This document shows, one piece after another, positions 45,045 to 48,837 of a DNA stretch of 64,000 nt. A program made the position numbers and the translations under genes. Every line of letters begins with the position of its first letter. Positions within the stretch are counted from its first letter, which is position 1. This DNA is from Streptomyces sp. A3M-1-3. GTDB taxonomy: Bacteria; Actinomycetota; Actinomycetes; Streptomycetales; Streptomycetaceae. The stretch spans positions 124,001 through 188,000 of the forward strand of contig NZ_JANAVP010000007.1 in the NCBI RefSeq assembly GCF_024213665.1. The letters run 5' to 3'. The notes beneath the pieces are model-generated. The model saw only the letters and a list, made by a program, of their open reading frames with translations, had not been told where the DNA came from and did no database searches.

Positions 45045-45142
45045 GTGGACAGGGCTCCGTGGACAGGGCTCACTGGGTGGGGCTCACTGGGTGGGGCTCA
45101 CTGGGTGGGGCTCACTGGGTGGGGCTCACTGGGTGGGGCTCA
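45045..45142. repeat. 14-bp minisatellite, seven units, overlapping the patA stop codon
   Basis: Two units of GTGGACAGGGCTC(C/A) at 45045-45072 are followed by five exact units of CTGGGTGGGGCTCA at 45073-45142. The whole array is 98 bases. The last unit contains the TGA stop of the leftward patA-like gene (45140-45142). The array fills most of the gap to the DUF5998 start at 45002. There are no spacers, so it is not CRISPR. Confidence 0.95.
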
Positions 45143-48100
45143 GTAGCTGGGGAGGGTGCGGGGGCCGAGGTCGGTTCTGGCGGGCGGCCGGGCGATCCGT
45201 ACGGTCGCGCCGAGCACCGACAGGCCCTGGGTGGCGACCACGACCGGTTCGAGGGCGACGCCGACCACCTCGGGATGGTCGTCCACCAGCCGGGACACCC
45301 GGAGCAGGAGTTCCTCCAGGGCCGCGGTGTCGACGGGTGCGGAGCCGCGCCAGCCGAAGAGGAGCGGTGCGGTCCGGATGGACCTGATCAGCTCGGCCGC
45401 GTCCCGGTCGGTGGCCGGGACGAGCCGGTGGGCGGTGTCGCCGAGCAGTTCGGAGGGCGCGCCGGCCAGCCCGAAGGACAGCACCGGGCCCGCTGCCGGG
45501 TCGATCACCGACCGTACGACCGTGTCCACGCCGCGCGGGACCATGGCCTGCACGACGGGCTGCAGCTCAGCGGGCTTGCCGAGCGCCTCGGTCAACTCGG
45601 CGTACGAGCGGCGCAGTTCCGCCTCGGCCGTCAGGTCGAGGCGTACGCCGCCGAGGTCGGGGCGGTGCCGCAGGTGGGGAGCGGTGGTCTTGAGCGCGAC
45701 GGGGTAGCCGAGGCGCGTGGCGGCTTCGACGGCGGCGTCCGGGCTGGGCGCGGGGAGGGTCGGCAGTACGGAGATCCCGTACCGCGCGAGGAGCTCGTGG
45801 GCGTCGGCGGCGGGGAGGGTGATGCCGCGCTCCCCCACGGTGGGGTCGAGCAGCCGCTCGAGCTGTGCGGCGGCGCCGGGCTCGTCGACGGTGTCGTTGA
45901 CGGCTTCGGGCACGCGCCCGGGCTCGGCGGCCTGCCGCCGCCACTGCGCATACCGCACGGCCTCGGCCAGCGCCCGCACGGCGCGCTCGGCGGCGGGATA
46001 AGCGGGAATCCGGGCGCCACGGCCGGCACCCGCGGCCGCGCGCGGGACAGCATCGCCGCGGGCGCCCAGGCCGGCACTGCTGCTCCCACCCGGCGCGATA
46101 CCCGCACGGGCGGCGGCATCGCCGCGGGCCCCTTGGCCGCCGCCGCGGCTCGCGCCCGGCGCGACGCCCCCGCCATGGGCGACGGCGTCGCCGCCGGCCA
46201 CGTTGCCCGCACGGACTGCGGCATCGCCGCCGGCGCCTTGGCCGGCGCTGCGACTCGCGCCCGGCGCGATGCCCGCGCCATGGACGGCACCGGTCGGGGC
46301 GTCGGCGTCGCCGTCGGCCAGATTGCCCGCACGGACGGCGGCATCGCCGCCTTGGCCGGCGCCGGCGGTCATCCCGGGCGCGGTTCTGCCTGCGCTGTCG
46401 CCGCCCGCGCCCGTCGAGCCCGGTGCGGGCGCACCGCTGGCGGCCGCGTCGGAGGTGGGTGTTCCGCTGTCCCGCCCCCTCCCGAAACCGTGGGCAAGCC
46501 CCCGGGCCCCCAAGGCGCCGAGGCCTCTGGCCCGCGCCACCAGGCCCTGCGGCGCCGGACCGGCAGGGGCTTCGCCGGGGCCGGGGCCATCCGGAGCGCC
46601 GGCTTCGGCGTGGCCCTGACCGCGGTCACCCGGTTCCGCGCCGTCGCTCCCCGAGCTGCCCGGAGCCGCGGCGCTCGCCTCACCCGGGGGGCCCGGTTCC
46701 ATGTTCGCCGCCATGCTTCCCGCGCCGTCCGGAACGGAGGCCTCCGCGCCATGCCCCGCGCTCGCCTCACCGGGGGCACCGGGTCCCCCGTCCCCGGGAC
46801 GGGGGCGGGTTGCCGTGCTCGTTGCTGCGGCCAGGGCTTCCGCCAGGCCGCCGATTTCCAGGTGGACCACCGCGACCGGCTTCGCCGGGGCGTCCGCGGC
46901 CGCCTCGCGCAGCGCCGCCGCCAGCACCTCGCCGTCGCCGGACTCCGTCGCGCCGTTCTCTCCCACCCAGGGAATCGCCGTCACCACCACCGCGTCACAC
47001 CCTTCGTCCGCGAGCGCTTCGGCCAGCGCGCCCCGGAAGTCCGCAGGCGTCGCGGCGGTGGTCAGGTCTCGGGGCGGCAGCGGGCGCAGCCCTTCGGTCA
47101 GGCAGGCGTCGTACGTGAGCAGGCCGAGCGACTCGGAGTTGCCGAAGATCGCCACCCGCGGCCCTGCGGGCAGCGGCTGGTCCGCCAGCATGAGGCCGAC
47201 GTCCACGAGCTCCGTGACCGTGTCGACCCGGATCACGCCGGCCTGGCGCAGCAGCGCCGAGACCGTCGCGTCCGGAATGCGCGTGACCGGCACCGCGTGC
47301 CCCGGCGGCGCGCTGCCGCTGTGCCGGCCGCCCTTGACGACGACGACCGGCTTGACCTGCGAGGTGCGCCGGGCGAGGCGGGTGAACTTCCGCGGGTTGC
47401 CGAGCGTTTCGAGGTACAGAAGGGCCACATCGGTGGCGGGGTCCTCGTACCAGTACTGCAGGAAGTCGTTGCCGGAGACGTCGGCTCGGTTGCCCGCCGA
47501 AATGAACGAGGACAGCCCCGCGCCGCGCCTCAGCAGCCCCGACAGCAGGGCGATCCCGATCGCGCCGGACTGGGTGAACAGGCCGATCCGCCCCGGCGTG
47601 GGCGGCTCGGGTGCCAGCGAGGCGTTCAGCAGGACGTCGTCCGCGGTGTTGATGATCCCGAAGGCGTTCGGGCCGATGATGCGCATGCCGTACGACCGCG
47701 CCTGGCGGACCAGTTCCCGCTGCCGCTCCCGGCCGTCCGCGCCGCTCTCCGCGTAACCGGCCGACAGCACGACGAGGCCCTGCACGCCGTGCTCGCCACA
47801 GTCCGCCACCGCTTCGGGCACCCGGTCGGCGGGGACGGCCACGACGGCCAGGTCGACGGGCTCACCGATCTCGCCGACGGACCGGTACGCAGGGACGCCG
47901 TCGAGCGTGGTCCCTCCGGCCGGGAGGGCGCGGTTCACGGCGTACGTACGTCCGGTGAACCCGGAGTCGAGGAGGTTGCGCAGCACGGACCGGCCGACAC
48001 CGCCGGGCGCGCGGCCGGCACCGATGACGGCGACGGCCCCCGGGGCGAGGAGGCGCTGCACGGAGCGCGCCTCGGCGCGCTGTTCGCGGGCGCGCTGCAC

Positions 48101-48685
48101 GGCCACCGACCGGTCGGTGGGTTCGAGGTCGAAGGTGAGATGGACGGAGCCGTCCTCGAAGCTGCGCTTCTGCGTGTACCCGGCGTCCGTGAACACCTTG
48201 ATCATCTTGGTGTTGGCGGGAAGCACCTCCGCGGCGAACCGCCGGATACCGCGCTCCCGCGCGACCGCGCCGATGTGTTCGAGGAGGGCGGAGGCGACGC
48301 CGCGCCCTTGGTGTGCGTCCTGGACGAGGAACGCGACCTCGGCCTCGTCCGCGGGGGCCGAGGCGGGCCGGCCCTCCGCGTTGATCCGGTCGAAGCGGAC
48401 GGTGGCGATGAACTCGCCGCCGACCGTGGCCGCGAGGCCGACCCGGTCCACGTAGTCGTGATGGGTGAAGCGGTGGACGTCACGGTCGGAGAGGCGGGGG
48501 TACGGAGCGAAGAAGCGGTAGTACTTCGACTGGTCCGACACCTGCTCGTAGAAGCTGACCAGGCGTTCGGCGTCCTCGGTGGTGATGGGCCTGATCCGCG
48601 CGGTGCCGCCGTCGCGCAGCACCACGTCGGCTTCCCAGTGGGCCGGGTAGGCGTGGTGCAGATTCGGGGCCGGCGAGGGCTGCAT
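45140..48685 (-). CDS. patA: PatA-like protein acetyltransferase (GNAT + NDP-forming acyl-CoA synthetase-like) with a long low-complexity insert
   Basis: The 1181-residue protein starts with a GNAT domain (ADVVLRDGGTARIRPITTED, acetyl-CoA loop VQDAHQGRGVASALLEHIG). A CoA-binding domain follows (PGAVAVIGAGRAPGGVGRSV), then CoA-ligase subdomains (GRIGLFTQSGAIGIALLSGL). It ends with an ATP-grasp-like domain (LGYPVALKTTAPHLRHRPDL). N-terminal GNAT order is that of Streptomyces PatA, which acetylates acyl-CoA synthetases. Between about residues 620 and 885 lies a Gly/Ala/Pro-rich insert with repeats such as GGDAAVRAGNVAGGDA. A 14-bp repeat array covers its stop. Confidence 0.88.
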   Translation of the reverse strand: MQPSPAPNLHHAYPAHWEADVVLRDGGTARIRPITTEDAERLVSFYEQVSDQSKYYRFFAPYPRLSDRDVHRFTHHDYVDRVGLAATVGGEFIATVRFDRINAEGRPASAPADEAEVAFLVQDAHQGRGVASALLEHIGAVARERGIRRFAAEVLPANTKMIKVFTDAGYTQKRSFEDGSVHLTFDLEPTDRSVAVQRAREQRAEARSVQRLLAPGAVAVIGAGRAPGGVGRSVLRNLLDSGFTGRTYAVNRALPAGGTTLDGVPAYRSVGEIGEPVDLAVVAVPADRVPEAVADCGEHGVQGLVVLSAGYAESGADGRERQRELVRQARSYGMRIIGPNAFGIINTADDVLLNASLAPEPPTPGRIGLFTQSGAIGIALLSGLLRRGAGLSSFISAGNRADVSGNDFLQYWYEDPATDVALLYLETLGNPRKFTRLARRTSQVKPVVVVKGGRHSGSAPPGHAVPVTRIPDATVSALLRQAGVIRVDTVTELVDVGLMLADQPLPAGPRVAIFGNSESLGLLTYDACLTEGLRPLPPRDLTTAATPADFRGALAEALADEGCDAVVVTAIPWVGENGATESGDGEVLAAALREAAADAPAKPVAVVHLEIGGLAEALAAATSTATRPRPGDGGPGAPGEASAGHGAEASVPDGAGSMAANMEPGPPGEASAAAPGSSGSDGAEPGDRGQGHAEAGAPDGPGPGEAPAGPAPQGLVARARGLGALGARGLAHGFGRGRDSGTPTSDAAASGAPAPGSTGAGGDSAGRTAPGMTAGAGQGGDAAVRAGNLADGDADAPTGAVHGAGIAPGASRSAGQGAGGDAAVRAGNVAGGDAVAHGGGVAPGASRGGGQGARGDAAARAGIAPGGSSSAGLGARGDAVPRAAAGAGRGARIPAYPAAERAVRALAEAVRYAQWRRQAAEPGRVPEAVNDTVDEPGAAAQLERLLDPTVGERGITLPAADAHELLARYGISVLPTLPAPSPDAAVEAATRLGYPVALKTTAPHLRHRPDLGGVRLDLTAEAELRRSYAELTEALGKPAELQPVVQAMVPRGVDTVVRSVIDPAAGPVLSFGLAGAPSELLGDTAHRLVPATDRDAAELIRSIRTAPLLFGWRGSAPVDTAALEELLLRVSRLVDDHPEVVGVALEPVVVATQGLSVLGATVRIARPPARTDLGPRTLPSY
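46030..46360. repeat. Degenerate repeats inside the patA insert
   Basis: On the leftward strand four diverging units of roughly 22-40 codons begin GGDAAVRAGNLA, GGDAAVRAGNVA, RGDAAARAGIAP and RGDAVPRAAAGA, each followed by Gly/Ala-rich text with an APGASR-type motif. They show expansion by duplication within the coding sequence. Confidence 0.75.
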
Positions 48686-48837
48686 GGGGAAAGAGTACGG
48701 GTCGCGGCGGCGCGGGGCGCGGGGCAGTCTGAGGAAGGCCGGACGGCCACCGGATTCGGGCCGGAGTCTGGACCCGAGCACTCCGCACCCCATGAGAGAC
48801 TGGTCTAGACAACCGTAAAAACCTGAAGGGCATCACC

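Follow-up and report, generated by a model that had tools for sequence, protein, structure and literature searches.

The window analysed here comprises 64,000 nucleotides of Streptomyces sp. A3M-1-3 (contig NZ_JANAVP010000007.1, positions 124,001 to 188,000). It contains a gene specifying a PatA-like enzyme, a fusion of a GNAT acetyltransferase with an NDP-forming acyl-coenzyme A (CoA) synthetase, whose product (hereafter the query) carries a Gly/Ala-rich spacer of 274 amino acids (aa) in its CoA-ligase part (Table 1). This insert is not a new device; it is one lineage's long version of a spacer present in all 71 Streptomyces relatives that were measured.

The N-terminal GNAT domain, one of the criteria for PatA type II GNAT-acyl-CoA synthetases, is present in the query, which matches PF00583 at residues 96–206 and aligns with 4nxy_A using phmmer. 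Chain 4nxy_A, titled only 'Acyl-CoA synthetase' in the database, is presumably that of S. lividans PatA. Judging from where homology begins, M37 (nucleotide 48685) is a likelier start than the first ATG. In Pfam, the CoA-ligase part matches PF13380, PF13607 and PF13549. A PatA-like enzyme with intact flanking domains had been described from the letters of this DNA (the original prediction), and the GNAT, CoA_binding_2, Succ_CoA_lig and ATP-grasp_5 matches bear this out.

Table 1. Coordinates of the PatA-like gene, its domains and its spacer in the window
Feature	Position	Strand	Remarks
PatA-like GNAT / NDP-forming acyl-CoA synthetase open reading frame (ORF)	45140..48793	-	1217 aa from first ATG, open throughout
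GNAT acetyltransferase domain, residues 39-223	48125..48679	-	phmmer to 4nxy_A residues 10-194 of 194, E 5.5e-102
CoA-binding subdomain (CoA_binding_2), residues 254-382	47648..48034	-	PF13380
Succ_CoA_lig subdomain, residues 400-533, contains H499	47195..47596	-	PF13607
Hypervariable Gly/Ala-rich spacer, residues 655-928, 274 aa, inserted in subdomain 5	46010..46831	-	
Repeat array within spacer, four decaying copies	46019..46351	-	
Last strand and helix of subdomain 5, residues 929-951	45941..46009	-	aligned with 8WZU 430-452
ATP-grasp domain (ATP-grasp_5), residues 992-1200, contains H1043	45194..45820	-	PF13549, E 1.6e-58

Two further database chains which matched the query, 9it0_A and 9isq_A, bear no title beyond 'Protein acetyltransferase' and are taken by us to be of the PatZ type. 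Between the aligned parts, 9it0_A has approximately 113 residues (309 to 423) as against approximately 360 in the query (565 to 929). According to the available part of a review, the class I enzymes, E. coli PatZ and Salmonella Pat, are fusions of a GNAT domain to an NDP-forming acyl-CoA synthetase, that is, of the same parts as the query in the opposite domain order (PMC8556138). The S. lividans PatA (SlPatA; type or class II), as described in the available parts of the same review and of an earlier paper, has the domain order of the query, with GNAT first, then the CoA-ligase part (PMC4053389, PMC8556138).

Position and composition of the spacer

The site of the insert was defined by alignment to the 4-hydroxybutyryl-CoA synthetase of Nitrosopumilus (8WZU), a member of the same enzyme superfamily. 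The C-terminal part of the query aligns with 8WZU from residue 430 (E-value=3.3e-39), with query W951 falling on W452, and a relative from Nonomuraea, in which the long spacer is missing, aligns with 8WZU over this region, its spacer site immediately preceding the final strand and helix of subdomain 5. These alignments indicate that the spacer interrupts CoA-ligase subdomain 5 ahead of this final strand and helix. The 17 columns before it show conservation of 0.57–1.00, and the 23 columns after it 0.60–1.00, with values above 0.9 in 20 of the 23. The original location, between the CoA-ligase subdomains and the ATP-grasp part, was therefore roughly right, but the exact place is within subdomain 5. 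The subdomain order of 8WZU is 1-2-5-4-3 and an 18-residue interdomain linker, W452-K469, follows its subdomain 5, as given in the available text of its description (PMC11494057). At the query site matching this tether (from W951) there are few residues and their number hardly varies, whereas the long spacer lies approximately 22 residues upstream of it, inside subdomain 5.

Glycine (27%) and alanine (26%) make up over half of residues 655–928, which include a single aromatic residue, one Phe. The repeat unit, searched as a pattern, begins at residues 815, 855, 891 and 913; at the DNA level, the copies lie 66–120 base pairs (bp) apart and are 66–83% identical to their respective reference copies. 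Tandem Repeats Finder gave a score of 173 at 46046–46199 on the plus strand and of 248 on the coding strand of the query spacer. These repeats exceed chance, since the self-match score of the query spacer was not attained in any of 100 shuffles of its residues (p 0.010, the lowest value attainable) and since the best array per codon-shuffled set (ten versions, all 72 spacers of the sample below) scored only 72–100. Both the extent and the repeats had been anticipated, as an insert of about 265 residues at 46020–46830 holding four decaying copies.

Structures were predicted with AlphaFold2 on alignments of close relatives, both for the query and for the relative L020, whose spacer is 45 residues long and which was modelled in a C-terminally shortened 930-residue form. 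The predicted template modelling scores (pTM) were 0.32 and 0.31, respectively. The weak query model showed no helix or strand over residues 623–893 of the 1181-aa form, a block with predicted local distance difference test (pLDDT) values of approximately 24–39. It is only consistent with disorder of the spacer, and says little about it.

Spacer length and sequence among relatives

A scan of genome contigs confirmed at least 544 relatives, of which the best 80 were kept, so that close relatives are favoured. All of these are titled Streptomyces, except for one filed as [Kitasatospora] papulosa, and S. lividans is absent from them. At 71 of the 80 loci both flanks could be measured, giving 72 sequences with the query. 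Three of the nine loci dropped (L017, L025 and L077) have no in-frame C-terminal domain after the spacer, and the other six are on draft contigs which end in or just before it (L019, L029, L032, L048, L061 and L078). Because of these six, spacer lengths taken from short-read assemblies may be skewed, with short and less repetitive versions over-represented.

A low-complexity stretch occurs at the same point in every one of the 71 relatives and ranges from 43 to 350 aa, with a median of 77. The query spacer is the third longest of the 72, only those of L001 (350) and L028 (287) being longer. No other place in the core alignment, which starts at query residue 46, has a length range of more than 14 residues. 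Even pairs with at least 95% core identity (n=129, not independent) differ in spacer length by a median of 19 aa, and only one such pair is equal. Seven further relatives were the first seven of 470 plasmid-collection records with a match; Streptomyces sp. BHT-5-2 has 64 aa at the spacer point and the other six only 6–17 aa. These six short-form relatives, one of them from a Streptomyces plasmid, match at 35–57% identity and some may be paralogues. In three of them the N-side alignment stops 8–11 residues early, so that the spacer is if anything shorter.

The sequence of the spacer is not conserved. The query repeat-unit pattern was not found in any of the 71 other spacers, and only six of these have a 6-mer in common with the query spacer, no more than with the shuffled query (mean 7.2). 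Internal repeats at p ≤ 0.02 versus shuffles are nevertheless present in 24 of the 72 spacers, where approximately 1.4 would be expected. By inspection the repeat units differ between lineages, with some close relatives sharing theirs, and gain of units between close relatives is seen in L051, which has an AET run missing from L066 and L056. Tandem Repeats Finder revealed 88 arrays in 52 of the 72 spacers, a density of 4.34 per kilobase (kb); the coding DNA on either side of the spacer in these genes has 0.33 per kb (65 arrays, 195.9 kb). Arrays cover 30% of spacer bases versus 5–8% after codon shuffling. Compared with the core, the spacers are poor in aromatic residues (0.6% versus 5.1%) and in isoleucine, leucine, valine and methionine (4.9% versus 24.1%). 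Cysteine is nearly absent from the spacers of the 72 sequences, at 0.02 of the codon-position null.

A long linker had been thought foreign to the family. This view is not supported, with an insert in each of the 71 measured relatives and with the collagen-like stretch of S. lividans PatA already in print, in the part of the report available (PMC4053389). The suggestion that the insert may be strain-specific holds at the level of lineages, for sequence as well as for length, and the homologue alignment proposed as a check confirmed that it is variable among Streptomyces PatA proteins. A shared insert of conserved sequence in most homologues, which would have argued otherwise, was not what emerged: every measured relative has an insert, but the sequence of the insert is not conserved.

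Interpretation of the spacer

The reading we prefer, with a probability of roughly 0.75, is that the stretch is a flexible, sequence-indifferent spacer which grows by in-frame tandem duplication. It would loop out of subdomain 5, in the CoA-ligase (regulatory) half of Streptomyces PatA, and is probably disordered; its presence, open frame and unstructured composition seem to matter, and the order of its residues seems not to. It would lengthen and shorten as GC-rich DNA is duplicated in tandem or deleted, in frame, through slippage or unequal crossing-over; lineages would therefore come to carry their own repeat units, and the query version is long and has a single decaying array of its own. 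The available part of one paper names slippage and unequal crossing-over as general sources of simple sequence of this kind (PMC1524752). The spacer would most likely be a passive tether or bristle, allowing the ATP-grasp and CoA-ligase parts, or the subunits of an oligomer, to move without fixed contact. Streptomyces PatA would clearly illustrate how an otherwise conserved enzyme can contain a single site that evolves freely and is driven by repeats; no account of the variability of the PatA spacer was found in the open-access library searched.

Several observations weigh against this reading. Isoleucine, leucine, valine and methionine reach 0.96, and aromatics 0.62, of the codon-position null in the spacers; the low hydrophobic content is thus mostly what GC-rich DNA would encode, and composition was rejected as proof of selected disorder, base composition explaining most of it. 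Array periods are divisible by three in 70 of 88 cases, versus 214 of 306 after codon shuffling (binomial P 0.029). Frame-preserving selection was not concluded from the periods, since the multiple-of-three excess, largely due to codon structure, nearly vanishes in this comparison. Both structural models are poor, and parts of the ATP-grasp domain have confidence values as low as those of the spacer. The remaining point comes from S. lividans PatA: the available part of a review describes its collagen motif as important for catalysis and as something that may give rise to octamers (PMC8556138). If the motif matters for catalysis, this would mean that the stretch is not passive in that enzyme, and, going by the descriptions, the query stretch is probably the same feature.

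The review's statement also favours a different role, already put forward for S. lividans PatA, in which a collagen-like (Gly-X-Y) spacer would serve for oligomerisation and keep the subunits attached to one another by a triple helix or a comparable structure. For the relatives examined here we regard this as very doubtful. Sustained glycine at every third residue is not seen in the query, the longest Gly-X-Y run of which is 3 (p 0.99). The longest in-register run is 4 in three of the 72 spacers (L016, L028 and L063) and 3 or less in the rest, and none of the 72 reached p ≤ 0.02 versus residue shuffles, L016 coming closest with a value printed as 0.02 and S. lividans lying outside the sample. 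Because no Gly-X-Y register attains this threshold, a collagen-type function cannot, as judged from these sequences, be general in the sample of 72. The query stretch differs from that of SlPatA in having a repeat unit of its own and in showing no more Gly-X-Y register than expected by chance. The published proposal ties the collagen-like stretch of S. lividans PatA to activity and to oligomer formation; the natural spacers of 43 to 350 residues, with their differing sequences, provide a ready-made series for testing it.

Selection might instead act on the repeats themselves, the length of the spacer tuning allosteric coupling or oligomer spacing and each lineage adjusting it by gaining or losing units. 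The 24 spacers with repeats are, by inspection, spread over several distinct branches of the tree built on the core, and the cysteine value of 0.02 implies that residue content is not wholly neutral. We nonetheless consider such selection unlikely, as spacer length changes freely between near-identical proteins and no preferred length was seen. The absence of stops in the spacers was not used as evidence on this point, because only loci open through to the C-terminal domain had been kept. A bolder version, in which the subdomain 5 loop is an evolutionary hot spot whose repeat-driven length tunes the coupling of acyl-CoA sensing to protein acetylation, each lineage setting its own regulatory response, appears decidedly improbable. 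That the long array of the query is an assembly artefact is scarcely credible: the stretch is evidently hard to assemble, with contigs of six of the 80 relatives ending in or just before it and three more without an in-frame C-terminal domain, but the query copies are diverged (66–83% to the reference copies) and in frame, with the downstream domain intact, unlike a falsely duplicated perfect repeat.

Histidines and neighbouring features

In 8WZU, H256 and H535 are the phosphate-relay histidines, according to the available text (PMC11494057). Query H499 (47297–47299) aligns with H256, the swinging-loop histidine, and is His in all 72 sequences; the motif at this site is GH(A/R)VP versus SHTG in 8WZU. 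H1043 (45665–45667) aligns with H535 and is present in 48 of 48 sequences of alignment A3. Some distant relatives lack one or both of these residues. Among six distant relatives, the H256-aligned His is present in L082, one column off in L085–L087, and missing from L083 and L084. Type II enzymes are said to be without the catalytic histidine in the available part of a review, a statement of that review and not a family definition (PMC8556138); the query departs from it in having a His aligned with H256 of 8WZU. Because histidines aligned with both relay positions are kept despite that statement, it may be worth assaying whether the CoA-ligase half of Streptomyces PatA is inactive, as presumed.

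In Tsukamurella (L083, 237–1466) a gene annotated as acetoin utilization protein AcuC, a relative of deacetylases, immediately precedes the GNAT-acyl-CoA synthetase gene, the start of which it overlaps. GC-rich codon usage most likely accounts for an antisense ORF of 1249 aa (45059–48808, plus strand) which spans the entire PatA gene in the window. A perfect 14-bp tandem repeat of 5.5 copies (45066–45142) overlaps the PatA stop codon and enters the gap before the next gene. Its exact 14-mer was not found in the 87 loci searched; in the regions just downstream of the gene at 71 loci, unrelated arrays are present in L016, L050 and L073, and a weak one in L044.
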